Assembly (NCBI RefSeq): GCF_000374545.1
Contig: NZ_KB894594.1
Location: 1-64,000 of the forward strand
Direction of reading: 5' to 3'
Source: Anaeromusa acidaminophila DSM 3853
GTDB taxonomy: Bacteria > Bacillota > Negativicutes > Anaeromusales > Anaeromusaceae
DNA: 64,000 nucleotides
A model generated the notes under the pieces. It did no database searches. It was not told where the DNA came from and saw only the letters and a program-made list of their open reading frames with translations. Both the position numbers and the translations under genes were made by a program. Shown in pieces: positions 15,701 through 56,393 of the stretch (position 1 is the first letter of the stretch; every line of letters starts with the position of its first letter).

Positions 15701-15714
15701 TCCGTATACTAAAA
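15701..15714 (+). promoter_or_regulatory. TCCGTATACTAAAA motif upstream of helicase
   Basis: A perfect copy lies 31 nt upstream of the helicase start codon on the coding strand. TATACT fits a -10 box; no good -35 is seen at 17 nt. Confidence 0.75.
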
Positions 15715-21792: not shown

Positions 21793-21832
21793 AAAAGCCT
21801 TTGCATTAAAAAATGCAAAGGCTTTCTTTTAA
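21793..21832 (-). terminator. Terminator of dnaN
   Basis: AAAGCCTTTGCATT / AATGCAAAGGCTTT with T runs on both sides, overlapping the dnaN stop codon region. Confidence 0.88.
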
Positions 21833-22938
21833 ATCCGCATTGGCGTCAAAACGCACAAAAACGAATTGTCATCAACCGGCGTAAGCAACAATGGTTTTAA
21901 TGGCCCAGAGAAAGATAGTTTAACATCCTTGCAATCCAGTACTTTCAGTGGTTCGAAAAGGAAAGACCCATTAAATGCAATTTTTACGGCTCCATCACTT
22001 GTCGCAGTAAGCTCTTCTTCAATTTGCTCGGCAACTTTTTCCGATGTGGATAATTTAAGTTGATCCTCTGTTAGATTTAAGCAAACCGATTTGTTTTCCC
22101 CTTTGGCAAAGAGAAGCAACCGATCCATAGTGTCTCGCAGCTCTCCCGTATCAGCCTGTATTGTTGCAATAAAATCACTAGGGATAATCTTATTATAATC
22201 AGGATACTTTCCACAAATTAGTCTAGAGGACAACTTTGTGTTGGGCAACCTAAATTCAATAAGACTTTTTTCGTCTCCGAAGATACGAATATCATCTCCT
22301 GGATTTTCAATAAGGCTAGCTACGTCAACCATGGTTTTATAGGGAACAATAAACGCGTTTGTTGCTGCTGGTTCGCGTTCTAAGGCAACTTTTGCCTGAG
22401 CTAACCGATGCGTGTCTGTAGCAACAGCAGTGATGGACTTATCTTCCTTTGAGATGGATAGATAAATACCTGTAAACATAGGACGACTTTCGTCCTTCGC
22501 AATTGAAAAGCCTGTTTTTTTGACCAGACTTTTAAAGTCTTCTCCTTTAATCGTTACTAATTCTCCAGATTCAATTTTAGAAGTCGGTGGAAGTTCTTCT
22601 GCAATCACAGGCAGATGGCACTTGATTTTCCCTGCCTTAATAAGCAAGCGGCCATCCTCTTTGATCTCCATCGAAATTAACGATCCTTCCGGCATCTTTG
22701 TGGTAATGGCCAATAGTTCGGCTCCTTTTACCAAGACAGCAAATTTTTCATCGCCAGCTTCAATACTGCAAACAGATTGAACGTCAACAGACAAGTCTGT
22801 CGATCTTCCGGCTAAAACAGTCCCGGTACATTTCAAAAGAACCGTACCACTTACAGAAGCCACTCCTACTTTGTTATTCCATCCTTTCTGAACCTTTTTC
22901 AATAGACCAATCAATTCCTCACGACGTACTTTAATCAT
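21829..22938 (-). CDS. dnaN: DNA polymerase III beta subunit (sliding clamp)
   Basis: The clamp encircles DNA and tethers polymerase. The 369-aa length is normal for the three-domain clamp. Recognisable parts are SRPMFTGIYLSI, AVATDTHRLAQAKV, LICGKYPDYNKIIP and the C-terminal LLTPVDDNSFLCVLTPMRI, close to the usual PVR end. A clamp on a mobile element suggests its own replisome loading or competition with the host clamp. It follows the leader-hairpin AAGGAGG arrangement and has a strong terminator. Confidence 0.95.
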   Translation of the reverse strand: MIKVRREELIGLLKKVQKGWNNKVGVASVSGTVLLKCTGTVLAGRSTDLSVDVQSVCSIEAGDEKFAVLVKGAELLAITTKMPEGSLISMEIKEDGRLLIKAGKIKCHLPVIAEELPPTSKIESGELVTIKGEDFKSLVKKTGFSIAKDESRPMFTGIYLSISKEDKSITAVATDTHRLAQAKVALEREPAATNAFIVPYKTMVDVASLIENPGDDIRIFGDEKSLIEFRLPNTKLSSRLICGKYPDYNKIIPSDFIATIQADTGELRDTMDRLLLFAKGENKSVCLNLTEDQLKLSTSEKVAEQIEEELTATSDGAVKIAFNGSFLFEPLKVLDCKDVKLSFSGPLKPLLLTPVDDNSFLCVLTPMRI

Positions 22939-23013: not shown

Positions 23014-23050
23014 AAAAGAGCCGAGGATTTATTTTTCCTCGGCTCTTTGT
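23014..23050 (-). terminator. Terminator
   Basis: AAAGAGCCGAGGA / TCCTCGGCTCTTT stem with an AT-rich loop; it overlaps the end of the Sel1-repeat gene. Confidence 0.85.
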
Positions 23051-23469
23051 TCATTCTCAAGTTGTTTTTTTTCAACCAATTTGAAGTACTTTCTTGCAAC
23101 GCTTCTACTTTTAGGAAATCGCACTTGGCTCTTCCCTTGATCATAAAACCAGGCAAGTCTAAACATTGCATAGGTATTACCCTGTTCTGCTGCTTTGCTA
23201 TACCATTCCAACGCCAACTTATTATCAGGCTTAGTTCCAAGCCCATATTGGTACATATCCCCGACTCTGGCTTGGCTGTGAGCATCGCCCTGACTCGCAG
23301 CACGAGTAAACCAATATAATGCGGCATCATTATCTTCAGCCCGATTTAACCCATGGTAATAATGTTCGCCAAGGCGGCGTTGAGCTACCACATTGTCTTC
23401 CCTAGCTAATCGTAGTAGCTCATCATCGATAACCTGTTCTACGACGGTAGGCCGATGAAAAGACTGCAT
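23029..23469 (-). CDS. Sel1-repeat protein
   Basis: The 146-aa protein has about three Sel1-like (SLR) helical repeats between residues 20 and 130: RRLGEHYYHG...AALYWFTRAASQGDAHSQARVGDMYQYG and ALEWYSKAAEQGNTYAMFRLAWFYDQG. These are protein-protein scaffolds. No signal peptide is seen. It is the last gene of the pilin-side operon (pilin, TadE, TadG-like, membrane protein, this one), suggesting an accessory assembly role. Confidence 0.8.
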   Translation of the reverse strand: MQSFHRPTVVEQVIDDELLRLAREDNVVAQRRLGEHYYHGLNRAEDNDAALYWFTRAASQGDAHSQARVGDMYQYGLGTKPDNKLALEWYSKAAEQGNTYAMFRLAWFYDQGKSQVRFPKSRSVARKYFKLVEKKQLENEQRAEEK

Positions 23470-23491
23470 ATAATCAACCTTTCAAAGAAAC

Positions 23492-24037
23492 TCAACCAAA
23501 CGGAATTTTTACGGTAGAATCAAATGGAGCTTCACCCATTCGAAATAACCGTGGAAGGGTCAGTTGGAGGGTTGTAACTTCAGTTGGAATAGGCGTAAAA
23601 GCCAATTCCAGCTTTGCTGTTGTACCCGGCAATATAGACGCTGGATTTCTTGTTTCAAGCGGTTCGCATTTGTATTGTTGGCCCACATTATCAATCAATG
23701 TGGCTTGGTTAACACCGCTTAAAATTTGCAATTCTTTTGCACCATCATTCTTGACGGTTAAAAAGACTTTTGAATATTCCTTTTTAAACTGAATTCCCTC
23801 AACCGTTACGCCTAAATCTCTTGTATAGGACTCGGCCGAAGTTTTATAAATTTTATCCCCCATATCTTTCATTGGTGGCTTTTTGGTAAATTCTTTTTCG
23901 CTAACCAGCGTAGCGTTTCCTAAGCCAGGAAGATGACCATGTGTATTCCAATAATACGCACCCAAACCACCTATGCAACACCCAAGGACCAAAACACCTA
24001 CAAGCAATTTCCACGGTCGACGATTCGTTTCTGCCAT
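23492..24037 (-). CDS. Membrane-anchored beta-sandwich protein in the Tad cluster
   Basis: The start is at 24037 (MAETNRRPWK) after GGGAGG. One membrane helix covers about 11-30, followed by an extracellular domain. Residues 80-181 look like an Ig-like/DUF4352-type beta-sandwich (VTVEGIQFKKEYSKVFLTVKNDG...ILPGTTAKLELAFTPIP). It lies between the TadG-like and Sel1 genes, so it may sit at the pilus base. Function is inferred only from context. Confidence 0.6.
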   Translation of the reverse strand: MAETNRRPWKLLVGVLVLGCCIGGLGAYYWNTHGHLPGLGNATLVSEKEFTKKPPMKDMGDKIYKTSAESYTRDLGVTVEGIQFKKEYSKVFLTVKNDGAKELQILSGVNQATLIDNVGQQYKCEPLETRNPASILPGTTAKLELAFTPIPTEVTTLQLTLPRLFRMGEAPFDSTVKIPFG

Positions 24038-24061
24038 GATGTTTCCTCCCTGCACCTATCA

Positions 24062-24499
24062 TCAGATTCGTTTTTGTTTGATGGCAGCAGTACCTTTAGC
24101 TTTTACCTTTGTTTCTTTCAATCCGTTACTTACAGCTTTCATAAAGGTCATTGGAACAGTAGCTTCCACTTCAATATTTAACAAACTTTTATCAGATTGA
24201 ATTTCAAATTTTGTTAGCTTCATGTTCCAACTGGCATTTCTGGCATTATCTCGTAAACTTTGTTCAACGCCCTCTCTAGCCTTTCCAGGATCTAAAACAC
24301 GGTTGCCGGTTTGCATAAAGACTTCTTCACTAAATCCTTTTCTAACGCCGGCAACCGCTGCAGCATTTGCTATGTTAGCTAAGTCAGAATGAACGGAAAG
24401 GGCGCCTCCCAAATCAAAGACCAATATTCCTAAGCACAAAGTAATGCAAACGAGAAATACGAAGCCTATTACTAATATAGCCCCCTTCCGCTTTTTCAT
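24062..24499 (-). CDS. TadG-like pseudopilin-family protein
   Basis: The 145-aa protein starts with a short basic segment, KKRKGAILVIGFVFLVCITLCLGILVFDLGG, the N-terminal helix of TadE/TadG-like proteins. It continues with SDLANIANAAAVAGVRKG, also typical. It is much shorter than classical TadG and lacks a von Willebrand domain. It begins 1 bp after the TadE gene stop, so the two are co-translated. Confidence 0.75.
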   Translation of the reverse strand: MKKRKGAILVIGFVFLVCITLCLGILVFDLGGALSVHSDLANIANAAAVAGVRKGFSEEVFMQTGNRVLDPGKAREGVEQSLRDNARNASWNMKLTKFEIQSDKSLLNIEVEATVPMTFMKAVSNGLKETKVKAKGTAAIKQKRI

Positions 24500-24500
24500 C

Positions 24501-24935
24501 TTAGACGTCCTCCATAATCATAACGGCTTTTCTTGATACGTTAAACGATGCCCAATTTGGTAGAAAATACTGTGAAAAAATTGGTTTCAAGCTAACGGTC
24601 ACGACAACTTCCAACGGATACCCAGGAGCATTCTGGCCGGCTTTAGGATAGGCTTGCACATTACTGATCGAAGTGTATCCGGCTTTTGCAAATGGGACAT
24701 TCTCCATCGCTGCTTGTCTTGCTGTTTGTTGGGCCACAGACAGGTTACTGGGGGCTTTGGTTAAAACCCCCTGGCGTACCCCTGCAAAGGCTGCGCTTGA
24801 CGTAGCCTGGACGGTTATAACAGCTCGTCCGACTTCCATTAACAGCGCAATTGCCATGATCATCATTATGAAAACCATTAAAAATTCTACAATGGCTTGT
24901 CCAGAGCGCTTTCCTCGTTTTGAGAAGTTAAGCAT
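24501..24935 (-). CDS. tadE: TadE-like minor pilin
   Basis: The 144-aa product carries the TadE N-terminus: RGKRSGQAIVEFLMVFIMMI followed by a hydrophobic helix to about residue 40. TadE-family minor pilins are processed by the prepilin peptidase and assist Flp pilus assembly. It is placed directly after the major pilin. Confidence 0.8.
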   Translation of the reverse strand: MLNFSKRGKRSGQAIVEFLMVFIMMIMAIALLMEVGRAVITVQATSSAAFAGVRQGVLTKAPSNLSVAQQTARQAAMENVPFAKAGYTSISNVQAYPKAGQNAPGYPLEVVVTVSLKPIFSQYFLPNWASFNVSRKAVMIMEDV

Positions 24936-24944
24936 AAGTTCACC

Positions 24945-25178
24945 TTAGTTTGCGAGTTGCGAAATTTTGGTTTTTACCGTAGTAATCAGAGGATCGATAA
25001 CTCCAGACGAAAACTTATCCTTAAACAAATACACAATGCCGGCAACAACCGCAAGGATTGCCAGATACTCAATTAAACCTTGTCCTTTGCGAGCTTTTCC
25101 TTTTGCGGAGATAGCCGGCTTAAAAGAAAACCATTTGGCTGCCATGACCATACTAAATTCATTTACTTTTTGATACAT
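24945..25178 (-). CDS. flp: Flp-type major pilin
   Basis: The 77-aa protein has the Flp processing region KARKGQGLIEYLAILAVVAGIVYLF, with G-x-x-(E)-Y typical of type IVb pilins. The leader before the cleavage site is unusually long, about 33 residues, and contains KWFSFKPAI. AAAAGGAGG precedes the start. The TCCGTATACT motif at 25206-25219 lies about 30 nt upstream, so this operon (pilin, TadE, TadG-like, two more) belongs to the shared regulon. Confidence 0.85.
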   Translation of the reverse strand: MYQKVNEFSMVMAAKWFSFKPAISAKGKARKGQGLIEYLAILAVVAGIVYLFKDKFSSGVIDPLITTVKTKISQLAN

Positions 25179-25205
25179 TTTTATTCCTCCTTTTTGGGGC
25201 CTTTA

Positions 25206-25219
25206 TTTTAGTATACGGA
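25206..25219 (-). promoter_or_regulatory. TCCGTATACTAAAA motif upstream of pilin
   Basis: A perfect minus-strand copy, 27 nt before the pilin start codon. Confidence 0.75.
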
Positions 25220-25253
25220 AATTATTTTAGATTTTCGGGCGGCTGGTAATAAA

Positions 25254-25287
25254 AAAGAAAACTCTCGTAAAGAGAGTTTTCTTTTGA
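25254..25287 (-). terminator. Terminator of ssb
   Basis: AAAAGAAAACTCTC / GAGAGTTTTCTTTT with a 5-nt loop, just downstream of the ssb stop. Confidence 0.85.
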
Positions 25288-25292
25288 ACTAA

Positions 25293-26075
25293 TTAAAACG
25301 GAATGTCTTCTTCTTGTATTGGCCCACCAAATGTACCGCTTTGCATCATTGCTCCACCAGGCATTCCTGCGTTGGAGTTCTGCGCTGTAGGCGGTTGTCC
25401 ACCGGGAGCTGCTTGAGAACGTTGTTGGCTACCTTGATTCGGTTGCGGAGATGGTTGCGAAGTAGTGGTAGAATTTGTTTGATTAGCAAAATCAAGGAAG
25501 GTGAACGTATTCAGTACATAACTGTGTTCAAACCTTTTTTTGCCATCATTTCCGTCCCAAGCTCTTGATTGAAGTTTTGCTTCAACCAGAATCCGGCGAC
25601 CTTTCGTTAAATGATTGCCGATGTTTTCTGCGGCTCGGTCAAAGGCTGTGACTTTGAAAAAATCTGCTTCATTTCTGTCGCGTTGAACAGCCAAAGAAAA
25701 TGTAGCAATACATTTCCCATTTGCAGAATATCGCACTTCAGGATCTTGTGCGAGTCGTCCAACGAGCATAGCGACATTTAAATCACTAGTTGCTTCGCTG
25801 GGAATAATCCCGCCATACAAAATAGCATTCTGAATATCAACGTAGCCATAGCTTCCGTTGTTATCATTAAACTTACGAGTGACAGGATTTCCTTTGACAG
25901 TAACTGGTTCTCCTGCAGACAACATCTTGGCATGTTCAGCCGCTTTCCCTTTTGTCATAACCCAGATTGGCAGCGATTCCAGGCATTTGTTACTTACCTG
26001 AAAATAAACAGAACCATCGTTTTGGACCACAGGATTGTTAACAAGGCACCCCGAGATAATAGTTGTCTTTGTCAT
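25293..26075 (-). CDS. ssb: Single-stranded DNA-binding protein with an extra N-terminal domain
   Basis: SSB coats single-stranded DNA and recruits partners through its acidic tip. Residues about 98-200 form the canonical OB fold (NVAMLVGRLAQDPEVRYSANGKCIATFSLAVQR, FFKVTAFDRAAENIGNHLTKGRRILVEA). A Gln/Pro/Ser-rich linker leads to the tip EEDIPF. The first 95 residues are extra and look like a second OB-like domain (TTIISGCLVNNPVV...EPVTVKGNPVTRKF). At 260 aa it is far longer than usual SSB. The leader has the hairpin-AAGGAGG arrangement. Confidence 0.92.
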   Translation of the reverse strand: MTKTTIISGCLVNNPVVQNDGSVYFQVSNKCLESLPIWVMTKGKAAEHAKMLSAGEPVTVKGNPVTRKFNDNNGSYGYVDIQNAILYGGIIPSEATSDLNVAMLVGRLAQDPEVRYSANGKCIATFSLAVQRDRNEADFFKVTAFDRAAENIGNHLTKGRRILVEAKLQSRAWDGNDGKKRFEHSYVLNTFTFLDFANQTNSTTTSQPSPQPNQGSQQRSQAAPGGQPPTAQNSNAGMPGGAMMQSGTFGGPIQEEDIPF

Positions 26076-26092
26076 AATAAAATTCCTCCTTA

Positions 26093-26104
26093 GCGCATGT
26101 GCGC
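26093..26104 (-). promoter_or_regulatory. Stem-loop before AAGGAGGA (leader family)
   Basis: TAAAACAAAATTT, then GCGCA-CA-TGCGC, then TAAGGAGGAATT in the ssb leader. Confidence 0.75.
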
Positions 26105-26183
26105 AAATTTTGTTTTACATATTTATTTTAGGTGTAAAAAAAACAGAAAGCAAAAGAGCGTACCCTTTTACTTTCTGCTTCGC

Positions 26184-26708
26184 TTATATGTTGTTTACTG
26201 GACTATGGAGTAAATGTTCTCCATTACGCCACTCTTTTATTCGCACCATCACATCGAAGGCCGCAGCACGGACAACCTCGTTTGGTTCCCATCCATTTTC
26301 TTTTTGCCATTCTTCCTCCGTCTTGGGCATTGTATCGTCCAATGACTGTAATAACCACCCTCCGTCGACTTTGAGATTGTTTCGATATGTTTCATCCATT
26401 GCCTTTGCAAACATGATTAAATCCATCATTTCTTTTATAGTTTCGACCAATAAATCCACTTTGCTGTTTTCGCCTAGATGTGGATTTAACAAGGTAATAC
26501 AGTCCGCAAAAAAATTGAACATGGATTCATAATTTCTCATTCTGGCTACTTTAAGTAACGCGTCAGAGTAGTCAGCCGTGGTCTGCTTATCATGAGAGTT
26601 TAATAAGTACGCATCCAACGCTTGTGCGGTTTCTGCTAGCATTTTATCTTCATTCTTTCCAAATTTGTGCTTTGCCAGATCAACCACAATTTCTTTCTTC
26701 TTTTTCAT
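26184..26708 (-). CDS. Hypothetical helical protein
   Basis: AAAGGAGA lies 9 nt before the ATG at 26708; the ATG at 26717 would be too close. The 174-residue product is almost wholly helical and acidic, with a lysine-rich start. No motif is recognised. It lies between ssb and the DUF192 gene. Confidence 0.6.
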   Translation of the reverse strand: MKKKKEIVVDLAKHKFGKNEDKMLAETAQALDAYLLNSHDKQTTADYSDALLKVARMRNYESMFNFFADCITLLNPHLGENSKVDLLVETIKEMMDLIMFAKAMDETYRNNLKVDGGWLLQSLDDTMPKTEEEWQKENGWEPNEVVRAAAFDVMVRIKEWRNGEHLLHSPVNNI

Positions 26709-26730
26709 AACTGCCATTCTCCTTTATTCG

Positions 26731-27048
26731 TTACTTCCATATAAGTGTATCTCCGCGGCAAATACTATACTTTTGAATGGTTCCTTCCGGAAGCTCCAGG
26801 GCATAACTTCCTTTAAAGGATATCATGATTTTCCCTGGATGAAGAGTTTTCATGGATACTACCTGATGATTTTTCGATAGAAAGAAAATGTCTAAAGGGA
26901 TTGTCATGCCAAGAGTATGTACTGCATGACAAGGTTTTAAAAGTAATCCCTCATCAAATTGTCTTTCCTTTTCCCCCAACAAGCCTATCAATCTTTGGTA
27001 AAAGGTTGCCGCTGTCCTAACTTTTATTGTAAGATGAACTGTTTTCAT
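26731..27048 (-). CDS. DUF192 family protein
   Basis: The 105-aa product fits DUF192: RTAATFYQRLIGLLGEKE, HAVHTLGMTIPLDIFFLSKNHQVV, and ALELPEGTIQKYSICRGDTLIW at the end. The family's biochemical role is not settled. It lies between the Tad assembly genes and ssb. GGAAAGAATC precedes the start. Confidence 0.8.
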   Translation of the reverse strand: MKTVHLTIKVRTAATFYQRLIGLLGEKERQFDEGLLLKPCHAVHTLGMTIPLDIFFLSKNHQVVSMKTLHPGKIMISFKGSYALELPEGTIQKYSICRGDTLIWK

Positions 27049-27090
27049 TAGATTCTTCCTTTCAAGAGGAGTATAGCATAAAGGCGCTAT

Positions 27091-27134
27091 AAAAATGGTT
27101 GTTACTCCAATGGAGCAACAACCATTTTTTAAAA
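27091..27134. terminator. Terminator after tadC
   Basis: AAAATGGTTGTTACTCCA / TGGAGCAACAACCATTTT stem with T runs, at the end of the Tad assembly operon. Confidence 0.85.
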
Positions 27135-28028
27135 AGATTGTGCCGTTTTCAAATAACCTACGAGCATCGGGCCTAAGAGAAGAATTACAATGGCCGGAAA
27201 GATCAATAGCATCATGGGCATATTGAGCTTGAGTTGAGCTGCGGACGCGCCTTGTCGAATCTTGTCTTGTTGGCGCTGGCGCATGGTGTCGGATAGAAGA
27301 GTTAATGTTTCAGCTACCGGGTGCGCGCCCATTTCATTTTCCATTGTAAATGTTCGGTATACTTCATTGATATCTTCTGTAGGTAAACGTTTACTTAACA
27401 ACAACAAGGAGTCCTGGAGCGTCATGCCCGATTCTACGCGCTGCACAAATAGTTGAAATTCTTTGGTTAGAACATTATTTGCGTTTTCAGAAGCAATAGA
27501 AGCCATCTCTAAAATCGATAAATTTATACTTGCCAAGACAGCCATCAGGTCCAATGTTGCTGGCAGGGCAATGGAGGCATCCAGTAAGCGATTCTTGATT
27601 TGTTTTGTAATTGCGTAACTTGGCAGATGACTTCCTGCAATAGCTCCTAATATAATTAGAAGCGGCCATTTTGTCCATTCAACATCATAAATAATGGCTA
27701 AGAACAAAATAAAGGCTCCTCCTAGATACATCCCTACCATTTCAAGGGTGATAATATGAGAAGGCTTCCAATTAAATGGTTCCCCAGCAGCATACAACAT
27801 AGATTGAATGTCTTCATAGCGTTCTGGTGGAACCGGCGGACTAGACAGATTAGCTAGTCGTTTTACAATCGACTCGCGGAGCTGAGCGTAATTTCGAATC
27901 TTTTCTTTGCCGTTTTCAAGCTCAACGGTTCCGCGTATTTTCATTCGCTCTTCAAGATCTTTTTCGTCTTGAATTAGGTAAAGAATAATACATATAAAAG
28001 TGAGTAAACACAAAACAAATACAGCCAT
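27129..28028 (-). CDS. tadC: Tad pilus inner-membrane protein TadC
   Basis: The 299-aa protein has a T2SSF domain (about 155-280: LPATLDLMAVLASINLSILEMASIAS, ESGMTLQDSLLLLSKRLP, LTLLSDTMRQRQQDKIRQGASA) and hydrophobic helices at the N-terminus, near 110-150, and at the C-terminus (MMLLIFPAIVILLLGPMLVGY). With TadB it forms the membrane platform that TadA drives. It follows tadB by 13 bp. Confidence 0.9.
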   Translation of the reverse strand: MAVFVLCLLTFICIILYLIQDEKDLEERMKIRGTVELENGKEKIRNYAQLRESIVKRLANLSSPPVPPERYEDIQSMLYAAGEPFNWKPSHIITLEMVGMYLGGAFILFLAIIYDVEWTKWPLLIILGAIAGSHLPSYAITKQIKNRLLDASIALPATLDLMAVLASINLSILEMASIASENANNVLTKEFQLFVQRVESGMTLQDSLLLLSKRLPTEDINEVYRTFTMENEMGAHPVAETLTLLSDTMRQRQQDKIRQGASAAQLKLNMPMMLLIFPAIVILLLGPMLVGYLKTAQSF

Positions 28029-28041
28029 ATGCCCTCCTCCC

Positions 28042-28983
28042 TTACAGTCCAGACCGAATCATTTTTTTGATGGATAGAATCTGTTTAGCCCATATAAATC
28101 CAACAATATTGAGAATTGCCGCAACGAAAAGCATACTAAGACCTAATGCGTCCGTCAGCATTTGAGAAACTAGTTCATATTTAAAAACCAGGCAAAATAG
28201 AAAAATGCCCATAGGTGAAAACCCCACAATTTTTATTGATGCACGACCAGTGGCTGTTATCGTTCGTATGGCAGACCGATCCCCATCTCTTTTCCGAATG
28301 ATACTGATGGTGCTCGTTATTGCCTTTAATGCAACTTCGGAACTGATTCTATCGGCAACTAGCAGGCCATTAAAGAGCAAATCACCGTCCTGGGTATTGA
28401 TATTATTTTTTAAAAACCTCAATACACTTTGTAAATCCTGCCCTTTTTTTACCATGAAGGCTGCCGCTCTAAATTTTCGTCCAATCGGATCAGGAACGGT
28501 TCCCGCTTCTTCTAAAGCGCGCAATATACTTGGAGAACTTCGAAGTATGGATTGCATCTTTACTGCTGCCTGTTCAAGCTGCACTTCAATTCTTGCTTCA
28601 AGCTTTCCTTCTGCTCGTTTTACTTTAAAAATGGTTAATAGAACACCCGCAATGAAAAAAGGAAAGCTGACTAGAAAATTGCCTGTTGCTAGGGTGACTA
28701 ATGTTACGATAATACATCCTCTAATTACACTATGTTGTTTTAACCCTTTTATGCTTGTTTGAATTCCTGCGTCGTAAGCTCGTTCTGCTAAACGGCCGTA
28801 AAATTTATCGATAAAACTATTATTTTGAGTTTGGCTAGCTTCTTGCAAGTCCTCATTTCTCAGGCGAAACCGTTGCTTAAATCGTTCTTCTTCTTCCATT
28901 TGCCAGTAATATATTCCGCCGATACATAGCAATCCCACTATGAACCAGAGCATATAAATTGTGGATGGTTGAATGTAGGTCAT
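28042..28983 (-). CDS. tadB: Tad pilus inner-membrane protein TadB
   Basis: The 313-aa protein has membrane helices near residues 8-26, 85-118, 255-275 and 278-300, and a T2SSF domain between. LEARIEVQLEQAAVKMQSILRSSPSILRALEEAG matches TadB-type proteins. It lies directly after tadA and before tadC, the standard order. Confidence 0.88.
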   Translation of the reverse strand: MTYIQPSTIYMLWFIVGLLCIGGIYYWQMEEEERFKQRFRLRNEDLQEASQTQNNSFIDKFYGRLAERAYDAGIQTSIKGLKQHSVIRGCIIVTLVTLATGNFLVSFPFFIAGVLLTIFKVKRAEGKLEARIEVQLEQAAVKMQSILRSSPSILRALEEAGTVPDPIGRKFRAAAFMVKKGQDLQSVLRFLKNNINTQDGDLLFNGLLVADRISSEVALKAITSTISIIRKRDGDRSAIRTITATGRASIKIVGFSPMGIFLFCLVFKYELVSQMLTDALGLSMLFVAAILNIVGFIWAKQILSIKKMIRSGL

Positions 28984-28992
28984 AAATACATC

Positions 28993-30444
28993 TCACCTTT
29001 CCAAAAATTCGTTAGCCCGTGGGTGGACCGGTTGGCTTTTATACCAATCTGGAGTCAATGTTAATCTATCCGCAAATGTTGGAATATAACCAGTAAAGCC
29101 TAAAGTGTCACTTTCTCCCTTTTTTAAAGGGTATTTCATTTTGAAAATTGGTTGAACTTCATAGTTCCCTTTATCATCTAACCCCACCATTTCTGCAATT
29201 TCAACGATCCTGCGTTTTCCACCATTTCGGTCATCCCGATTGATTTGGATAATCATGTTTATAGCGGAAGAAATTTGCATTCTGAGAGATGATAACGGAA
29301 TTATTTTATCTAAGGTACACATATACTCAATACGAGTAAGTGCATCCGCCGGCGTATTCGCATGAAGTGTTGTAAGCGATCCATCATGCCCTGTATTCAT
29401 GGCCTGCAGCATTTCTAAGGCCTCAGACGAACGACACTCCCCGACTATAATTCGGTCGGGACGTGCACGCAAAGCACTCCAAATGAGAGCTGCCATGTCG
29501 ATATTTACGATGTCTCCTTTACTGGCGCGTATTTTTCTTGTTGCCCAGTACAATGTATGGTCTACAGCAAGATCCAGCTCCCTCGTATCTTCACAAACAA
29601 TAATACGGTCTGTCTCAATAAAATTGCTGATCATATTCAAGATTGTTGTTTTGCCGCTACCGGTACCGCCGGATATTACAATATTTAGCCGTCCGTCAAC
29701 ACAGGCCCTTAAGAAAGTTAATGCAGCGTCAGTAATAGACTCATTCTGCACAAAATCTTCAGGACGCATTTTAAATTTTGGGTGTTTCCGTATGGTTAAT
29801 TCCGTTCCGTTAGTAGCAACTGGCCATATCGTAACGTGTAGGCGATGCCCTTCTGGCAAGTACCCATCACATACGGGGTTAGCAACGTCAACTTTTTGTC
29901 CTAATGGTTGAATGATTCTGTCTACTATGTTTTTAAGGTGAGCCTCACTATCAAACCGAACCCCTTTAACCTTTCTTACCTCTCCATATTTTTCTACCCA
30001 GACATTATTGGGACCTACGCACATGATTTCTTTAACATCATCATCATGTAAAAGAGGTTCTAAGGGGCCGTAACCACAAATCTCATTGATGATTTCTGTC
30101 ATCAGCCGGTCTTCGATTTCTTTTCCTGCATAAGGAATGACAATGCGAATTTCCTTTAGCAAAAACTCTTTTAATTTTTGTTCTTTTCCCGTTTCTTGGA
30201 GCATCTTCAATTCAGGAGAAGATAAGACATTTTTAAACACGGTATCTTTGAACTGAGAATATGAGCTATCATCCATCCTGCTTTTGGGGCCTGCATTCTC
30301 AGTGCGACGACTTCCAAAAGGAGAATCGCCTTGATGAATATGTTTATTCTCTTCAGAGCAGGAAGCTATCGGCTTTTCTGGAGGTATCTCTTGAATGATT
30401 TCCAATTTTCTTGGTTGATTTCTTTGCCCAAATAATCCTCTCAT
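28993..30444 (-). CDS. tadA: Tad pilus assembly ATPase TadA/CpaF
   Basis: TadA is the hexameric secretion ATPase of Flp pili. The 483-aa product has Walker A ISGGTGSGKTTIL, an Asp box (IIVCEDTRELD), Walker B (RPDRIIVGECRSSEAL) and a His box (GHDGSLTTLHANTPADALTR). The first 65 residues are variable. Its ATG is preceded by AAGGAGG only at a distance; a perfect hairpin (30454-30481) lies between, which would bring site and start to about 11 nt. Confidence 0.93.
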   Translation of the reverse strand: MRGLFGQRNQPRKLEIIQEIPPEKPIASCSEENKHIHQGDSPFGSRRTENAGPKSRMDDSSYSQFKDTVFKNVLSSPELKMLQETGKEQKLKEFLLKEIRIVIPYAGKEIEDRLMTEIINEICGYGPLEPLLHDDDVKEIMCVGPNNVWVEKYGEVRKVKGVRFDSEAHLKNIVDRIIQPLGQKVDVANPVCDGYLPEGHRLHVTIWPVATNGTELTIRKHPKFKMRPEDFVQNESITDAALTFLRACVDGRLNIVISGGTGSGKTTILNMISNFIETDRIIVCEDTRELDLAVDHTLYWATRKIRASKGDIVNIDMAALIWSALRARPDRIIVGECRSSEALEMLQAMNTGHDGSLTTLHANTPADALTRIEYMCTLDKIIPLSSLRMQISSAINMIIQINRDDRNGGKRRIVEIAEMVGLDDKGNYEVQPIFKMKYPLKKGESDTLGFTGYIPTFADRLTLTPDWYKSQPVHPRANEFLER

Positions 30445-30453
30445 TTTTAATAA

Positions 30454-30481
30454 GGATGCAGTTAATTTCTTAACTGCATCC
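30454..30481 (-). promoter_or_regulatory. Hairpin between Shine-Dalgarno and tadA start
   Basis: GGATGCAGTTAA / TTAACTGCATCC is a perfect 12-bp stem with a 4-nt loop. It separates AAGGAGG (30484-30490) from the ATG at 30444. Folded out, the spacing is 11 nt. It follows tadZ with only a short T tract after it, so weak termination is also possible. Confidence 0.65.
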
Positions 30482-30503
30482 AGCCTCCTTAATCATTTTT
30501 CAT

Positions 30504-32486
30504 TTACCGTCTTCTAATTTTTGGTCCTTTGGAAGATCTTTTAAGAGTTGGCTTAGCAGCTGCTGGTTCTTTCTTTTTCTTTCGCGAGAACAATCTCGTA
30601 AAGAGTGAGAATAACCCTTTTTTCGGGGGCGCCTCTTCTTCGACAATCTCTTCTTCACCCTCTTCATCATAACTTTCTCCGCGAACTACCAACGCTTGAT
30701 CCTTACTGCTCTTCCTTTTCTTTTCAATAGTACCCAATGTCGTTGCTAGACGTATCACGTCCTGTGCCAAGGGTTCGTTTTCAAATGATGCAACGGCCGG
30801 CAGTCCTTGTTCTTGGCTTTTATCAGCTGATTTTCTGTCAAAAACAATTTCGCCCGCAAAAAAGTTATCCACTCCTGACGGTGATACAGTTCCCAAGATG
30901 TCTTTAATTTTATCAACATTTAACTCGCCATTATACTTTGCTTTATTGATTACCAACCTCGATTTTTTTAGATACTGCTGTGTTTCTGAATTTGGATCCT
31001 GGGAAAAACCAGCAAGTTTTGTTAATAAACTCCGGGTATTTCTGACGGATTCATAGGTAGAATCCGTTACGAATACAATCGTTTTCGCTTCGCCAAAGGC
31101 TGTCAGAATAGGGGGTAATAAATCCACGGACGTATCAATGAAGATGTAATCGAAAGACCGCCGAAGCTCATGCATAATGGCTTCTATGTGCTCTTCCTTA
31201 ATTTCTTCACTTTCGCCAATCATTTGCGGCCCCGTCAAAACCCATAAATTATCAAACCCATCGGGCTGCCATAGTGAATTGCTTATAGCGCCTGGCTGAA
31301 ATGATTTTTCTTCTTTTTGAAATGCGTCCATACGGATAAGGTCAGGTATCGTTCTAATTGGACCTTGATTCGTGAAATGGGTATCCACTGCACAATAATT
31401 AAGGTCCATGTCAATTATGGCGACCTTGGGTTGCCCTTTCCCTTTTTTTGATGTTCCATACAACGCTGCAGCCGTAGCAAAATTTACAGTTAGTGTTGTT
31501 TTGCCTGAGCCACCTTTTACAGAGGTGAAAACGATTTCTCTTGCCTTCTCATTAATGCTATCTGACGCTCTATTCATCATATCGTTAATTTGAAGAAAGG
31601 AATTGCTCGTTTCCATAGATGGTTGTGGTAATGGTGTAGCGGGATTGGTACTAATAAATTGTGGTTCTTCTTCTTTTGGTGCAACGGGTGCTAATACCGC
31701 CGGGGACAATGTTGGTGGGGCGGCGACGACAGGCGGAACCGGAATTCCTGCAGGTGCAAAAGGCGTATCGCAAGTTGTTGCCATCTGGGTCTGGGAAATT
31801 TTCATTTGAATTACATCCAGAATAACGTTGTATAAATCATTTTTTGAGTAGGGTTCTTGGCCTTGGCCTGTACGGGTTATAATGTGCGGTATTCCTTGGG
31901 CCTGAATTTGTGTTTTGAGCATTGGGTCAGGTCTAATTCCAATAGCAAACTGTGTTTGCGGATTCCGCATCATTACATGACGTGCCACTTGAATCCCATT
32001 ATGAATTGGTATGTTCATATCAATAATTACAAGATCAGGTTGATAGGACTCAATGAGTTCGATTGCAACTTTTCCTGTAATAGCCCAGCCAATATACTCC
32101 AAATTCCAGTCTTCAATGGTTTGAAACTGCTTTAAAAATTCATTGCATTGCGGGGATTGGTCTGCAACTAGAATTCGAAGGGTCGGCGTTTGCAATTGCG
32201 CTTCAACAACCGGAGATGGGATTAGCGGTTCGATAGGACTGGGGGTAAGCCGCATTTGATTTTCTTCCGGGACGTATTGTGAAGTAGTTAACCCAGGTAT
32301 GTTCTCGTTTCGATTAGCAAGAACGCTTTCTCTAGTCGGCGGCGTGAAGGAAGACGCAATCACTGCCTCTTCTTGATGATTAGCTGGTTCTTCTTTCCAT
32401 GGCAAACTATCTGATGAACCAAACCGAATTCTTTTCGTTTTGAGTTCTATTGGGGGGGCGTCACCACGAAATGTGTTTTTTGACAT
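30504..32486 (-). CDS. tadZ: TadZ/CpaE-like protein: receiver plus ParA/MinD-type ATPase
   Basis: The start is 32486 (MSKNTFRG) after GAAAGGAG. The 660-aa protein has a disordered N-terminus, a receiver-like domain (LRILVADQSPQCNEFLKQF...DLVIIDMNIPIHNG), a Pro/Ala linker, and a deviant Walker A ATPase (FTSVKGGSGKTTLTVNFA, AIIDMDLNYCAVD). It ends in a very charged Glu then Lys/Arg-rich tail. TadZ positions the pilus machine at one cell site. It is longer than most relatives. Confidence 0.88.
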   Translation of the reverse strand: MSKNTFRGDAPPIELKTKRIRFGSSDSLPWKEEPANHQEEAVIASSFTPPTRESVLANRNENIPGLTTSQYVPEENQMRLTPSPIEPLIPSPVVEAQLQTPTLRILVADQSPQCNEFLKQFQTIEDWNLEYIGWAITGKVAIELIESYQPDLVIIDMNIPIHNGIQVARHVMMRNPQTQFAIGIRPDPMLKTQIQAQGIPHIITRTGQGQEPYSKNDLYNVILDVIQMKISQTQMATTCDTPFAPAGIPVPPVVAAPPTLSPAVLAPVAPKEEEPQFISTNPATPLPQPSMETSNSFLQINDMMNRASDSINEKAREIVFTSVKGGSGKTTLTVNFATAAALYGTSKKGKGQPKVAIIDMDLNYCAVDTHFTNQGPIRTIPDLIRMDAFQKEEKSFQPGAISNSLWQPDGFDNLWVLTGPQMIGESEEIKEEHIEAIMHELRRSFDYIFIDTSVDLLPPILTAFGEAKTIVFVTDSTYESVRNTRSLLTKLAGFSQDPNSETQQYLKKSRLVINKAKYNGELNVDKIKDILGTVSPSGVDNFFAGEIVFDRKSADKSQEQGLPAVASFENEPLAQDVIRLATTLGTIEKKRKSSKDQALVVRGESYDEEGEEEIVEEEAPPKKGLFSLFTRLFSRKKKKEPAAAKPTLKRSSKGPKIRRR

Positions 32487-32502
32487 TATTGCTATACTCC
32501 TT

Positions 32503-33213
32503 TCATCGTCCTGGTTGTGATTGAACAATAAAACCAAAGCGACTTAAAAATGTTTGCGGCAAGACGTTTGCTTCCTGCACTTTTCTTGATCCTGCCTGTG
32601 CTTTGTTGATGCGGATACTTGCGCCTTGCTCTACCGCAAAGCTGATATAGCCAGCTTCTTGTGGAACTACCAGTACGGTCAGACTTTGTTTCCCGTTCGA
32701 ACCGCTGCTTACGTCAACAACTTCGACCAACGGCGCTACATTGATCGTTGTAGCGATTCCAAGCCCGCCTTCTTTTTTGAAGTTCACAATAATATCAACT
32801 ATATCTCCTTTTTTAACGTTGCCTACCTGTACATTTCCTTGGTCTAACGCTATCGGAAATTCACGGGTATTATCGTTTTTCGTTACAAGCTGTTTACCGT
32901 CTTCGTCTTCGACTCCTACCGCTTGTCCCAAAACCTCTTGGCCTTTATATATAGTTGCTACGCTTGTTAACCCAACAACTTTACTGATTTTCTCTGAGGT
33001 CAAGCCATTGGGGTGTTTGGCCATTTCTGGAATTGATTTTGTTTCAAACATATCCGCGGTTAAAACGGTTCTTGCATCAATCTTTTGTTTGGCAACAACT
33101 ACCTCTGTTAAAGTTAATGCTTTGGTATATCCTTCATACATTACAAAAGCAGCACCTAAAGCGCATAGGCAGGCACCAATAAAGAAATATTTCTTATTTA
33201 CCTGGATCTTCAT
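32503..33213 (-). CDS. cpaB: Flp pilus assembly protein CpaB/RcpC
   Basis: The 236-aa product has one N-terminal membrane helix (YFFIGACLCALGAAFVMYEGY) and a SAF domain (LTEVVVAKQKIDARTVLTADMFETKSIPEM...GLTSVATIYKGQEVLGQAV) followed by a second beta-rich domain (KKGDIVDIIVNF...VVEV...SLTVLVVPQEAGYISFAVEQG). It overlaps the HTH gene by 4 bp and precedes tadZ, with which it may interact. Confidence 0.88.
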   Translation of the reverse strand: MKIQVNKKYFFIGACLCALGAAFVMYEGYTKALTLTEVVVAKQKIDARTVLTADMFETKSIPEMAKHPNGLTSEKISKVVGLTSVATIYKGQEVLGQAVGVEDEDGKQLVTKNDNTREFPIALDQGNVQVGNVKKGDIVDIIVNFKKEGGLGIATTINVAPLVEVVDVSSGSNGKQSLTVLVVPQEAGYISFAVEQGASIRINKAQAGSRKVQEANVLPQTFLSRFGFIVQSQPGR

Positions 33214-33446
33214 GCGTGCTCCTCCCGTGATTCCAGTTTCAATAAATCGCCAGGAGTAACTGCGTATGTTTCACAAAGCTTTTCCAGTACATCCAGTTTT
33301 ATCGATTTAACATTTCCTTTTCGTAGTTCGGCCAATGTATTATTTCGGATTCCTGTTTCAATATGTGCCCGGTAAGTTGAATGTCCCTTTTCCTTTAAAA
33401 CATCGTCCACTTTTAAGACAATCATTTTTGATGCATTTTCAACCAT
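33210..33446 (-). CDS. XRE-type HTH regulator at head of Tad operon
   Basis: The 78-aa protein (start at 33446 after GAAAGGGTG) is a Cro/C1-like domain: LKVDDVLKEKGHSTYRAHIETGIRNNTLAELRKGNVKSIKLDVLEKLCETYAVTPGDLLK. Its stop overlaps the cpaB start by 4 bp, so regulator and pilus genes are coupled. It is itself preceded by a TCCGTATACT motif and is a candidate binder of that motif. Confidence 0.85.
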   Translation of the reverse strand: MVENASKMIVLKVDDVLKEKGHSTYRAHIETGIRNNTLAELRKGNVKSIKLDVLEKLCETYAVTPGDLLKLESREEHA

Positions 33447-33474
33447 TTTCCACACCCTTTCTTGAGCCTCTTAA

Positions 33475-33488
33475 TTTTAGTATACGGA
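33475..33488 (-). promoter_or_regulatory. TCCGTATACTAAAA motif upstream of Tad operon
   Basis: A perfect minus-strand copy 28 nt before the start of the HTH gene that heads the cpaB-tadZ-tadA-tadB-tadC operon. Confidence 0.78.
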
Positions 33489-33535: not shown

Positions 33536-33573
33536 TGAGGCCCACCAACTCTCATTGGTGAGCCTCGCTTTTA
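33536..33573 (-). terminator. Terminator
   Basis: GAGGCCCACCAA / TTGGTGAGCCTC with a TCTCA-type loop, overlapping the end of the M23 gene; T-rich sequence follows in the minus direction. Confidence 0.8.
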
Positions 33574-33999
33574 TTCCCATATTTTCATTGGATCTACATA
33601 CTGTCCATCCTTAACATATTCTAAGTGTACATGAGGTCCCGTAGAGTTCCCGGTACTTCCCACAGCCGCAATGGTATCACTTTGCTTAACGGTTTGCCCC
33701 ACTTGAACGTAAATTTGGCTGCAATGACCATATAGGGTATAGGTTGTTCCGCCATGATATAGAACAACTACATTACCATATCCGCCATACCATCCTGCAA
33801 AGGTTACTTGCCCTTCCCATACGGCTGGTATTGGAGCTCCCATGTCGCCGGCAATATCAATTCCCGTATGAAAACTCCTTTCCCCTGAAATAGGGTGAAT
33901 CCTCCAACCAAACGGGGAAGTAATTGTCATTGCATAAGAAGTCATAGGGCAAAATAATGCCATTAGCAAAACGAAGATAATAATTTTTGTTTTTTTCAT
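33571..33999 (-). CDS. M23 (LytM) peptidase, secreted
   Basis: M23 enzymes cut peptide cross-links in the wall. The 142-aa protein has a signal peptide (1-23) and almost nothing but the catalytic domain. Zinc ligands are H44 and D48 (FHTGIDIA) and the second His of HVHLEY near residue 125; TLYGHC supplies the other catalytic His. It ends a long operon headed at 40247 and could open the wall for the pilus or a transfer machine. Confidence 0.9.
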   Translation of the reverse strand: MKKTKIIIFVLLMALFCPMTSYAMTITSPFGWRIHPISGERSFHTGIDIAGDMGAPIPAVWEGQVTFAGWYGGYGNVVVLYHGGTTYTLYGHCSQIYVQVGQTVKQSDTIAAVGSTGNSTGPHVHLEYVKDGQYVDPMKIWE

Positions 34000-34048: not shown

Positions 34049-37000
34049 TTACTGAGCTTTTTGAAATTGGTCTTCCCAATATTTCAGCCTTTGTTTTTCC
34101 ACCTCCAAATCAATTTCATCTTTAGGAAGATCATCTGCATAAAATATAGTGCGGTCCGTTTCCTCTGTTTTCTTTAAATCCCCGTCCCGAATGAGCCTAT
34201 TTATAAACCGCCGAGGCAAAGGCAATTTTAAAGTTTCGATGATTTCCTCATCATGAGGAGGGAGCACTGTCACAGGAGCACTTCGCACCAAGATGGGCTC
34301 GCTATGGAAATGTGAAAACTGATTATTGATTTTTATTACGCACATGCCAATAGGTTGTTTAGTAAGCCAGGTTGGTACGTCCCTATCATCTAGCCTGGCA
34401 TTCCTTGATAATGCGGTGGTAATCATTTGCACATCTTCTTGTGTACCCAGTCGATGTGCAATAATTACACCGACATTCGTTAAAACCGCATCTGGAAGAT
34501 GTTGCGGCGCCTGACCTATAACCATGGCAAATAATCCATATTCACGCGCTTCATTCAGCAGTATTTGGTATATATCTTCGTTTACACCTAACGGCGGGTC
34601 CTGATTGGGGCTGCATGGAAAGACTTCATGTGCTTCTTCCAGAATAAAGAGTCGCTCTTCCACAAGCTTTTCAAAGGACTTCATATCCTTCGAATAAAGA
34701 AATACACCCCAAGTAATGAGCCCCAAGATAAACTTTTTAGGCATATCATCGAGCATCCCGCCTTCAAGAACAATAATTCGTTTACCGTTGATAAGGTCTT
34801 CTATTTTTACAATCTGGTCTCGGTCCCGAGAGCAATACATTTCTCGCAAGTTGCGAGTCATAAACGCATTCGTTTTCGTTAGAATGGAATCGTAAGCGTC
34901 AACCATATTTCTTCCAGCAGGGTTTGATACGGCTGCCTGTCGTAGTGCATTGATTCGTTCTAACACATCCGCTAAGGTCACATTGTAGACCAATTCATAG
35001 GCATTTTCTGACTCTACGGCGATGGTTCCGGCACCAGTTCTTGGATTCTTTTCCAGCACTCCTTGTTTTAAAAATAGCTCCTCCGCGACTTTATCAAATA
35101 CGCCTTTTTGCTTATTACCAAAACCATATGCAAGGCAAAGACTTTCATGAACTTTATTCATCCAGTCCATGACCGATATTCCCATAGGAGGAACATATAC
35201 CTGCATTCGTATAGGGCGTACTCCTTCTGCGTAAAGCGAGAAAAAGTCAAAGTCCTCGTCAGGCACAAACCGCTTCAATATTCTCCAAGACTTTTTCCAA
35301 TCCAACGCAAGGATTTTCTTTTTTGGGCAATTCTTTGCAATGCCTTCTGCGATCCGTTGGCTTGTTGTTGTTTTACCGCAACCAGAAGCACCACACACTA
35401 ATATGTGCATTAGCTCTTTTTCTTTAAAGGAGTATTCAAATTCAGGTTCTCCTGTTTCATGACTGATTTGCTTTCCTACATAAATTTCCCCTTGTTTATC
35501 CGCACGAAGGGTAAATGCTGGAATGTTTTGGGCCGTTGTAAATATACCCCCGGCTTCAACCCTTGGTGGATGCGTCAATCCCGCCAATTCAGTGGGCAAC
35601 AAGACGGTACTATGCTCATAAGCTTCCGCAATCCCCGGTATAACTTCCTTTTTTGTACAAGTAGTAAATGTGCTCATGTGTCGAAGTAAATGCTCACTCA
35701 TATATGGCGGCGGCGTGTATACCTGTACAGGGCTGACAAGAGAACCGTCACCTCCAAATGCAGCTTCTGCTAAAGCGCCGATTGCTTTTTTCAGTTGAGG
35801 ATCATGACTTGAAATAAACACTTCTACATAGAAAGCTCCATCAGCAATCGCTTTGGTAAATCGCAGATTTTGTTCTTCAAATACTTTTGCCATATTAGCT
35901 TTAACTTCATCGTATTTTGTGTAGGTTTTGCTCATACCAACCGATGGTCCTAAGCCCATATTGGCGCCGGTTCCTGCACTTAACCCATTAGCAACACCTT
36001 CAGAGCGACCTAGTGAATGCCCAGTTCCTTCGGATCGGCCCTGTGTAGTTCCTGCTGCCTGTGATTGTGTCTGCGAAATATTTTGAGTTGTGCCGGCGCT
36101 TTTAGATAGCGAATCGTTTACACCTAATGATTGAGTTTGCCCTCTACCTACAGAAGCCGTTTGCCCTGAATTGGTCGATAACCCATCTGTATGCGTGGTA
36201 CCTTGTGCTTTTGACCACCCATCAGAAACGGATTGTCCATGGCTTTGGGACTGGCTATTGGCTACTGAATGAGAGTTTGCTACAGAATAACTGGTACCCT
36301 GCGAGCTACCCTGTGATGTTCCATTTGATAAAGCCCTGGATGTACCTACAGAATGGCTGCTTCCTGCTGATTCTCCATTTGAAACGGAATGTGAATTTGA
36401 TAGACTATTTGACTGAGATTGACTAGTAGAAGTTCCGGTAGTATCACCTTGTCCCCAGCCTCTACTTACACCCTCACCAACATTAGCGCCGCGCCCAGAA
36501 GATACTCCATCACTCCAATTGGCGCTAGATCCCATTGTGCTTGAATTAGAAAATGAATCCATTTCTGATGTTCCGCTGCCATTGGATAAAGAACCGTTTC
36601 CTCCAACACCCACAAAGGGCAACGAAGCATTCATACCTATAGAGCCAGCTTCATTTGTTGACATGCCGCTTGCATGGCCACTTGAACTAGAACTAGATGC
36701 TGAATTTCCGCCACCCACCATGGAACTGGTACCCGAATTAACACTCATGCCACGATTTTGGCTTTCGCCATAGTTATAGCTGTTGGAATGGCCTGCCGAA
36801 GTTCCAGTTCCTACTGAATTTGTTTGACCAACAGTAGTCCCGTCCGTTGTGGTTCTACTTACTCCATGATTGGTTCCATAAGACTCATTGGTACCATTAG
36901 TCAATGTTTGGCTTGTACCTTGATTTGTTCCATAATTTTGTCCATGCGAAACCGTTTGACCGTTTGTTACTGTTTGTCCCACTGTATTAGTAAGGGACTC

Positions 37001-38148: not shown

Positions 38149-38889
38149 TTAATAGTTTCTGTAATTCTCTTCCTCATGCTTTTTCTTTTGATTGCCAGTA
38201 CGCATTTGTCTTGACATTTCTTTCTCAAAAATTTCCCCAGCACTATATTTTTGCCAGTACTCCCATATGGTTTTCCCATATAGAATGGGGACGATCGCGG
38301 CAATGTAGTCTCGTGCCATTGGTAAATAACCCATAACAGCGGAAGTCGTTGCAGGAGCAGATGGGTTTTTATGAAGACTTGTTGAGCCGATTGCGGAAAC
38401 TCCCGTGTTGAACCACAATAAGATTTCAATAAGCATTATCGCACCAACATAGGCAACGGTATACGTTTCCACCGTTTGTGACAATTCTTCGCGGTCACCT
38501 TTTAGAAAACGTACAGACAGGGCCCCCATTGTCCACATAAGGGTTGTTGAATATAATATGGCAGGTGAGCTGATCACCGTCGCAGCTGCTATAACCACAA
38601 CATAGACTGCATATTTTACAAGCAGGACCTTTTTCTTTCCGTTTAGCGTATCTTCATCGTAGGTTGCGATTTGGGTACTTGCATCATCAATATCCTCATT
38701 GTTAAATCGCCTTTTGGTTAGTTTTGTTGCCAGTTGTGTCTGGAATTTCATTCTCCATTTGTAGATAAAAAGCATAGCGGTTGTCAAAATGACTATTGCT
38801 ATATTACTTATCACAAACCAATATAAAGTAACCGCGGCGTTATAATGATATATTTTCAGGGTGTTTATCAGATTATGAAGTACATCCAT
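38149..38889 (-). CDS. Multi-pass membrane protein
   Basis: The start is 38889 (MDVLHNL) with AAAGGAG upstream. About four membrane helices are visible (LYWFVISNIAIVILTTAMLF, VVVIAAATVISSPAILY, AYVGAIMLIEILLWF and a weaker one near 200). The layout of several helices with loops recalls TrbL/VirB6 channel proteins, but no motif proves it. It ends 14 bp before the giant ATPase start. Confidence 0.65.
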   Translation of the reverse strand: MDVLHNLINTLKIYHYNAAVTLYWFVISNIAIVILTTAMLFIYKWRMKFQTQLATKLTKRRFNNEDIDDASTQIATYDEDTLNGKKKVLLVKYAVYVVVIAAATVISSPAILYSTTLMWTMGALSVRFLKGDREELSQTVETYTVAYVGAIMLIEILLWFNTGVSAIGSTSLHKNPSAPATTSAVMGYLPMARDYIAAIVPILYGKTIWEYWQKYSAGEIFEKEMSRQMRTGNQKKKHEEENYRNY

Positions 38890-40281: not shown

Positions 40282-40295
40282 TTTTAGTATACGGA
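40282..40295 (-). promoter_or_regulatory. TCCGTATACTAAAA motif upstream of giant-ATPase operon
   Basis: A perfect minus-strand copy 34 nt before the start at 40247. Confidence 0.75.
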
Positions 40296-46786: not shown

Positions 46787-46800
46787 TTTTAGTATACGGA
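46787..46800 (-). promoter_or_regulatory. TCCGTATACTAAAA motif
   Basis: A perfect minus-strand copy, 36 nt before the start at 46751. Confidence 0.75.
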
Positions 46801-56379: not shown

Positions 56380-56393
56380 TTTTAGTATACGGA
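56380..56393 (-). promoter_or_regulatory. TCCGTATACTAAAA motif
   Basis: A perfect minus-strand copy 42 nt before the start at 56338. Confidence 0.72.

Follow-up and report, generated by a model that had tools for sequence, protein, structure and literature searches.

The thin pilus of the IncI plasmids R64/ColIb bears a minor pilin, PilV, whose alternative C-terminal adhesin cassettes form a shufflon served by a site-specific recombinase. Transfer of the Pseudomonas element PAPI-1 involves a type IV pilus together with homologues of VirB4 and VirD4 only (PMC12857230), while CedD is a DNA-import ATPase that works with Ups pili (PMC11868833). Here we analysed bases 1-64000 (the window) of contig C13, a contig of 113,029 bp in a genome of 3.48 Mb and 61 contigs, where a Tad/Flp pilus is encoded next to a HerA-superfamily ATPase. 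We tentatively propose that the two may act together in the self-transfer of the plasmid that carries them.

The Tad cluster and its HerA-superfamily neighbour

A complete set of cytoplasmic and inner-membrane Tad components, together with Flp, TadE and TadG-like pilins, lies between 24062 and 33213, all on the minus strand. The original prediction had named Flp, TadE, TadG-like, CpaB, TadZ, TadA, TadB and TadC at this place, and these names are borne out by Pfam and NCBIfam profiles; TadB (28042-28983), which has no significant Pfam match of its own, was recognised via a profile built from its relatives. The core of a Tad/Flp (type IVc) system (TadA, TadB, TadC, TadZ and CpaB) is present, and a G/XXXXE[YF] processing site is found in both Flp and TadE. 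The cluster and the genes that follow it are:

24062-24499, minus: TadG-like pseudopilin (PF13400, 2e-6)
24501-24935, minus: TadE pseudopilin with a G/QAIVEF site (PF07811, 4.6e-5)
24945-25178, minus: Flp major pilin, with the processing site G/QGLIEY in its sequence (PF16982, 0.0014; PF04021, 0.027; both under the curated cut-off)
25293-26075, minus: single-stranded DNA-binding protein, SSB (PF00436, 4e-30), kept in the relative loci L020, L021, L022 and L025
26184-26708, minus: helical protein without Pfam or PHROG match
26731-27048, minus: DUF192 protein (PF02643, 1.4e-16), with a counterpart, by sequence, in the host Tad cluster at C16:46513-46854
27129-28028, minus: TadC platform protein (PF00482, 7.5e-14)
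28042-28983, minus: TadB platform protein, matched by profile to T2SSF genes in loci L020-L024 and L072
28993-30444, minus: TadA/CpaF ATPase with Walker A and B motifs (PF00437, 1.8e-47; TIGR03819, 6e-72)
30504-32486, minus: TadZ/CpaE, a receiver plus MinD-like (MinD/ParA) ATPase (PF00072, PF13614)
32503-33213, minus: CpaB/RcpC, with SAF and RcpC domains (PF08666, PF16976; TIGR03177, pilus_cpaB, 1.6e-12, below cut-off)
33210-33455, minus: Cro/C1-type helix-turn-helix (HTH) regulator (PF13443, 1.3e-12)
33571-33999, minus: M23 endopeptidase (PF01551, 3e-33), whose counterpart, by sequence, heads the host Tad cluster at C16:55734-56168
34049-38134, minus: HerA-superfamily ATPase, 1361 aa (NF033849, 1.5e-250; PDB profile matches are HerA)
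38149-38889, minus: membrane protein, 246 aa, with homologues in six relative loci
38904-40247, minus: coiled-coil and PD-(D/E)XK-like protein, 447 aa, with invariant H313 G314, D347, E360, E362 and K377
40382-42190, minus: CobT-like VWA protein (PF11775, 1.5e-10)
42239-43648, minus: MoxR-like AAA_5 ATPase, the VWA partner (PF07728, 2.6e-15)

The HTH gene is the first of the CpaB-TadZ-TadA-TadB-TadC operon, and the Flp-TadE-TadG operon has a separate upstream region with its own copy of the motif described below. The ssb, DUF192 and helical-protein genes had been seen as interruptions of the cluster. All three do lie among the Tad genes, but DUF192 is no intruder: it is found, like the M23 gene, in the Tad cluster that the host has on contig C16, and both are therefore ordinary companions of Tad in this lineage.

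The ATPase belongs to the NCBIfam family NF033849, on which it scores 833.9 bits (cut-off 650). In a profile search against PDB it matched HerA structures, not VirB4, and its closest functionally named NCBIfam relative is CedD (1.6e-9, far below the cut-off of that model). Ahead of the ATPase domain it carries a Ser/Gly-rich insert of 438 residues (positions 290-727; 153-599 residues in the ATPases of relatives), in which Ser and Gly recur at even spacings, a pattern that appears beta-strand-like and would fit an extended strand more than a plain flexible linker. The neighbouring 447-aa protein seems nuclease-like from its residue pattern, and its homologues share the invariant H-G, D, E-x-E and K.

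HerA loci for comparison came from PLSDB (72,556 plasmids) and three further genomes. Homologues of the ATPase are found on only 3 of the 72,556 plasmids, the giant plasmids pRUMAL01, pB6464 and one of Pontibacillus (420, 436 and 898 kb; hosts Ruminococcus, Alkaliphilus and Pontibacillus), each with Tad and SSB genes near HerA, and pB6464 also with the MoxR-VWA pair near Tad. Further loci occur in a Clostridiales metagenome-assembled genome (two), in Candidatus Avimonas (one, TadZ being the sole Tad gene shown on the contig) and in genome G488 (two; the order-level search around it covered three genomes). Window included, Tad genes accompany 9 of 10 HerA loci versus none of 17 control loci, in a small census (the metagenome-assembled genome and another genome contribute two loci each, and in L071, one of the latter pair, both the HerA and the TadZ frame are interrupted) whose controls are class- or phylum-level matches (E 1e-10 to 1e-29) to generic VirB4/HerA-like proteins without Tad. 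The sole HerA locus lacking Tad, L070, holds a 221-aa fragment.

The companions conserved with HerA are SSB, the 447-aa protein, the membrane protein, CpaB, TadZ, TadA, TadB and TadC. In pRUMAL01 and pB6464 they follow the order SSB, 447-aa protein, membrane protein, HerA, CpaB, TadZ, TadA, TadB, TadC, from which the window differs in that the SSB gene comes after TadC. The block is absent from all three genus mates and, among 394 genomes of one order, occurs in the query genome alone, plus one weaker match to the ATPase only; a scan of IMG/VR with the ATPase returned no relative.

A promoter-like motif confined to a probable plasmid

The original prediction had also pointed to a motif shared by the Tad genes, a DNA-translocase-like operon and a replicative helicase. 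The motif is real: allowing up to two mismatches, the window holds 11 matches versus 1.7 expected, a number reached in none of 100 shuffles. The exact form, TCCGTATACTAAA, has 14 copies in the 3.48-Mb genome, eight on C13, four on C30, two on C31 and none on other contigs, and is absent from the three genus mates; as a control, the reversed motif gave no copy in this genome and one in one genus mate. This confinement to three plasmid contigs is in line with the proposed co-regulation of Tad and the DNA-translocase operon. Most sites lie 33-55 nt ahead of a start codon, and the targets comprise the Flp, Tad, HerA, PilM-to-PilC, pilin, A24 and Omp85-PilT operons as well as a helicase gene (15746-17608) that looks UvrD-like and not replicative. 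Sites in the window, with a sigma factor that is a candidate cognate of the motif, are:

15701-15713, plus: motif before the UvrD-like helicase gene 15746-17608
25207-25219, minus: TCCGTATACTAAA motif before the Flp operon
33476-33488, minus: motif before the HTH-CpaB-TadZABC operon
40283-40295, minus: motif before the operon of 38904-40247 and HerA
46788-46800, minus: motif before the open reading frame (ORF) 46281-46751
56381-56393, minus: motif before the ORF 56000-56338
48767-49657, plus: sigma-70-family factor (PF04542, PF04545)

Under this plasmid sigma factor, transcription would begin just downstream of TCCGTATACT. One C31 site faces into an IS30 copy; across the junction inferred below, its target would be the gene for an SLT transglycosylase at the left end of C13. 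The IS30 (C13 1-1224; 1-1255 of C31, locus L102) has apparently inserted between this site and the gene.

That the cluster sits on a mobile replicon, as had been predicted, agrees with what we found, since C13 carries both a replication initiator and a partition gene:

C13:102364-103752: Rep_3 initiator (Pfam)
C13:101153-101806: ParA (by sequence)

Further C13 genes include the sigma-70-family factor, a PilT and an Omp85 protein. Bases 1-1224 of C13, the IS30 copy, are identical to the reversed bases 1-1224 of C31; the 3' end of C13 is a CRISPR repeat with which C30 starts; and C30 and C31 share their final 20 bases, which lie within a tail-collar cassette array. Based on these matching contig ends, not on reads, the three contigs appear to form one circle of ~176 kb, and C30 and C31 are very probably part of the C13 plasmid. 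Their G+C content (41.5-44.3%) is below that of three chromosomal stretches (47.8-50.4%), and their tetranucleotide profiles cluster together. Outer-membrane genes suggest that the host is a diderm member of the Bacillota, probably of the Negativicutes. Nor is this an ordinary host pilus locus, a reading by which the original prediction would have fallen: a separate host cluster of Tad genes lies on C16 (M23, CpaB, secretin, TadZ, TadE, TadG, TadA, TadC, DUF192 and A24, mostly assigned by sequence), which is shared with the genus mates, and in a TadA tree the host TadA groups with those of the genus mates, apart from the plasmid one.

The supposed lack of a peptidase and a secretin holds for the 64-kb window, where neither an A24 prepilin peptidase nor a secretin was found, but not for the inferred replicon. 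The search of the rest of the replicon and the host that had been advised turned up both: two A24 genes, of which one accompanies the host Tad cluster (C16) and the other, of PilD type, lies at C31:6008-6814, and three secretins, on C4, on C16 (host Tad) and at C30:21693-23069. That the pilus might rely on the host alone for its peptidase could consequently be set aside. The plasmid Tad cluster itself contains no dedicated RcpA/CpaC secretin of the kind that belongs to Tad clusters of diderm hosts. The C30 secretin lies among PilM-, PilO-, PilB- and PilC-like genes (recognised by sequence; PilB by NCBIfam), the set for a second pilus, of type IVa-like build, and the PilV-like minor pilin of this pilus matches tail-collar fibres at its C-terminus. 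We also observed, in loci L101 (C30, 14455-16725) and L102/L103 (C31, 18486-27451), the PilV-like pilin with numerous tail-collar cassettes, recurrent CTTCCCAAGGAAGT-like sites and a gene for a tyrosine recombinase, which we take for a shufflon-like arrangement; the sites are only partly conserved, and inversion was not seen.

Several other features illustrate the mixed content of this plasmid. Beyond the window, C13:69394-75093 (minus) encodes a type IV-D-like CRISPR-Cas system (Csf2, Csf1, Csf3, Cas6 and a helicase of RecD type). Two arrays go with it, one of 10 repeats around C13:68604-69233 and one of 15 repeats around 87868-88832. A stretch of N (C13:68167-68595) adjoins the first array, whose spacers were compared with the loci of this analysis; spacers of the second had no match in PLSDB. 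By sequence, Cas9-, Cas1- and Cas2-like genes in locus L100 (C30, 123-4913), whose array repeat also ends C13, represent a second CRISPR-Cas system on the inferred plasmid. A tubulin-like protein with a weak PhuZ match (locus L101, C30, 7180-8786, minus) and its small neighbour possibly form a TubZR partition pair. Judged by sequence, a sliding-clamp-like gene (DNA polymerase) occupies 21829-22938 (minus), and C13:64163-65787 (plus) encodes an IscB-like protein that shows RRXRR and HNH features, adjoining an IS200-type TnpA. Three type-P5 twister ribozymes lie within 2.7 kb on the minus strand (60063-60128, 61638-61694 and 62692-62756).

Proposed DNA transfer and its alternatives

A VirD4 coupling protein (PF02534, a profile that does not cover the FtsK/TcpA type) was found neither in the whole genome nor in pRUMAL01, pB6464 or genome G764; Pontibacillus gave a sub-threshold match and genome G765 one match on another contig, so that neither this genome nor any of the three giant plasmids has a VirD4 gene above the cut-off. 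Among the three giant plasmids, a PF03432 relaxase was detected on pRUMAL01 alone. Following this survey, the plasmids bearing the block mostly lack a known transfer set, yet possess a pilus and an ATPase of DNA-pump type along with SSB and a nuclease-like protein, and two of the three giant ones are typed as non-mobilizable by MOB-suite (via PLSDB). Because the HerA-Tad block is conserved across divergent giant plasmids and a VirD4-type coupling protein is missing, we take DNA transfer as the leading hypothesis, in which Tad and HerA would form a self-transfer machine of the plasmid; we hold it with some reserve, at slightly less than even confidence. In such a machine, the plasmid-encoded sigma factor would switch on the regulon, pili would grip a recipient chosen by the PilV-like cassettes, and TadA or PilT would retract them. 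M23 and SLT enzymes would open the wall, the 447-aa PD-(D/E)XK-like protein would prepare the plasmid DNA, and a HerA hexamer, anchored via the 246-aa membrane protein, would drive it out while SSB would protect single strands.

Several points weigh against transfer. HerA ATPases also act in DNA repair and anti-phage defence, adhesion roles of Tad pili are well known, and the host already possesses one Tad system. Neither a relaxase nor an oriT came to light on the element, the relaxase scans taking in part of the plasmid ORFs, and the scope of PF02534 leaves room for an FtsK/TcpA-type coupling protein. The TadA tree places the window TadA outside the host's clade but does not resolve the HerA-linked TadAs as one clade, and the AlphaFold models (mean pLDDT, the predicted local distance difference test, of 45 for the ATPase C-terminus and 48 for the PD-(D/E)XK-like protein) were of too low quality to search for similar folds. 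On the Pontibacillus plasmid, finally, HerA and Tad lie ~15 kb apart on opposite strands. This last arrangement would suit a plasmid-borne Tad pilus that serves adhesion or biofilm formation, close to HerA only as part of the plasmid core, with the HerA block a neighbouring operon for maintenance or DNA processing. SSB and HerA are indeed typical DNA-maintenance genes, plasmids often carry related secretion ATPases (at least 5000 records in PLSDB, counting VirB11 kin), and other Tad systems exist in the host and its genus mates. We nevertheless consider this rather unlikely, as drift would not have preserved so tight a gene order across Clostridia, Bacilli and this genome when the proteins share 15-33% identity, one motif drives both the Tad and the HerA operons, and the only HerA locus without Tad is the L070 fragment.

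Alternatively, a Tad or type IVa pilus might pull DNA towards a HerA importer, as in competence and in the manner of archaeal CedB/CedD. Tad genes are required for natural transformation in Micrococcus luteus (PMC4322843), DNA uptake by Tad pili is reported for Liberibacter (PMC8513845), CedD works in import only (PMC11868833), and the element does carry a PilT. Import alone would however be of little gain to a plasmid, the PilV-like cassettes point to the choice of a recipient, and a reading of plasmid ORFs, short of a systematic search, brought up nothing like ComEC or ComEA, which leaves this option improbable. An equally slim chance is given to HerA and the nuclease-like protein being an anti-phage or anti-plasmid defence pair that happens to lie beside the pilus: HerA models are among the PADLOC matches (4.5e-10) and the element has type IV-D-like and Cas9-type CRISPR-Cas genes, but the top model, NF033849 (1.5e-250), is a separate family (antiphage HerA, 1.8e-5), and the block is kept with Tad on plasmids of unrelated hosts. 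Given the gene content of the block and the precedents of PAPI-1, CedD/Ups and Micrococcus luteus, we rate the Tad-plus-HerA transfer machine as most likely, ahead of adhesion.

Comparison with described transfer systems

These observations suggest an undescribed route by which plasmids may pass between cells. In its boldest form, which we regard as possible but doubtful, the block would represent a distinct class of bacterial conjugation machine, a Tad pilus with a HerA-type pump bearing a giant Ser/Gly insert, that dispenses with VirD4 in moving giant Bacillota plasmids and could perhaps do without a classical relaxase too, whose part the PD-(D/E)XK-like protein would take. If true, such a pilus-plus-HerA system would explain the spread of plasmids typed as non-mobilizable, provide a marker for calling plasmids transmissible, and represent a bacterial counterpart of archaeal Ups/Ced. 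It would also give a function to the serine-rich family NF033849, of which the window ATPase is a member and for which none is stated; in the open-access literature we found neither a Tad linkage of this family nor a link between Tad and conjugation through such an ATPase.

With R64/ColIb the plasmid appears to share a type IV pilus, a PilV-like minor pilin, cassettes and a tyrosine recombinase. R64, however, uses a Dot/Icm-like type IV secretion system (T4SS), which was not found here, and the cassettes here are phage-tail-collar domains, those seen on C31 all facing one direction. For Thermus transjugation (TdtA) we know of no link to Tad. It resembles the present case in that an ATPase of a mobile element pushes DNA out without a canonical T4SS (PMC5365140, PMC7767461), and differs in that the recipient relies on its own competence system. 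PAPI-1 is likewise a mobile element transferred by a type IV-family pilus and FtsK/HerA-superfamily ATPases without a full T4SS (PMC12857230), but with VirB4 and VirD4, whereas here we find a Tad pilus, a HerA-type ATPase with a Ser-rich insert and no VirD4 (PF02534). The archaeal Ups and Ced (CedB/CedD) systems, finally, make contact through type IV pili and combine these with ATPases of HerA/VirB4 type and small membrane proteins, with no relaxase known (PMC11868833); yet Ced is chromosomal, induced by DNA damage and imports DNA, while the pilus described here is of Tad type and encoded on a plasmid replicon.

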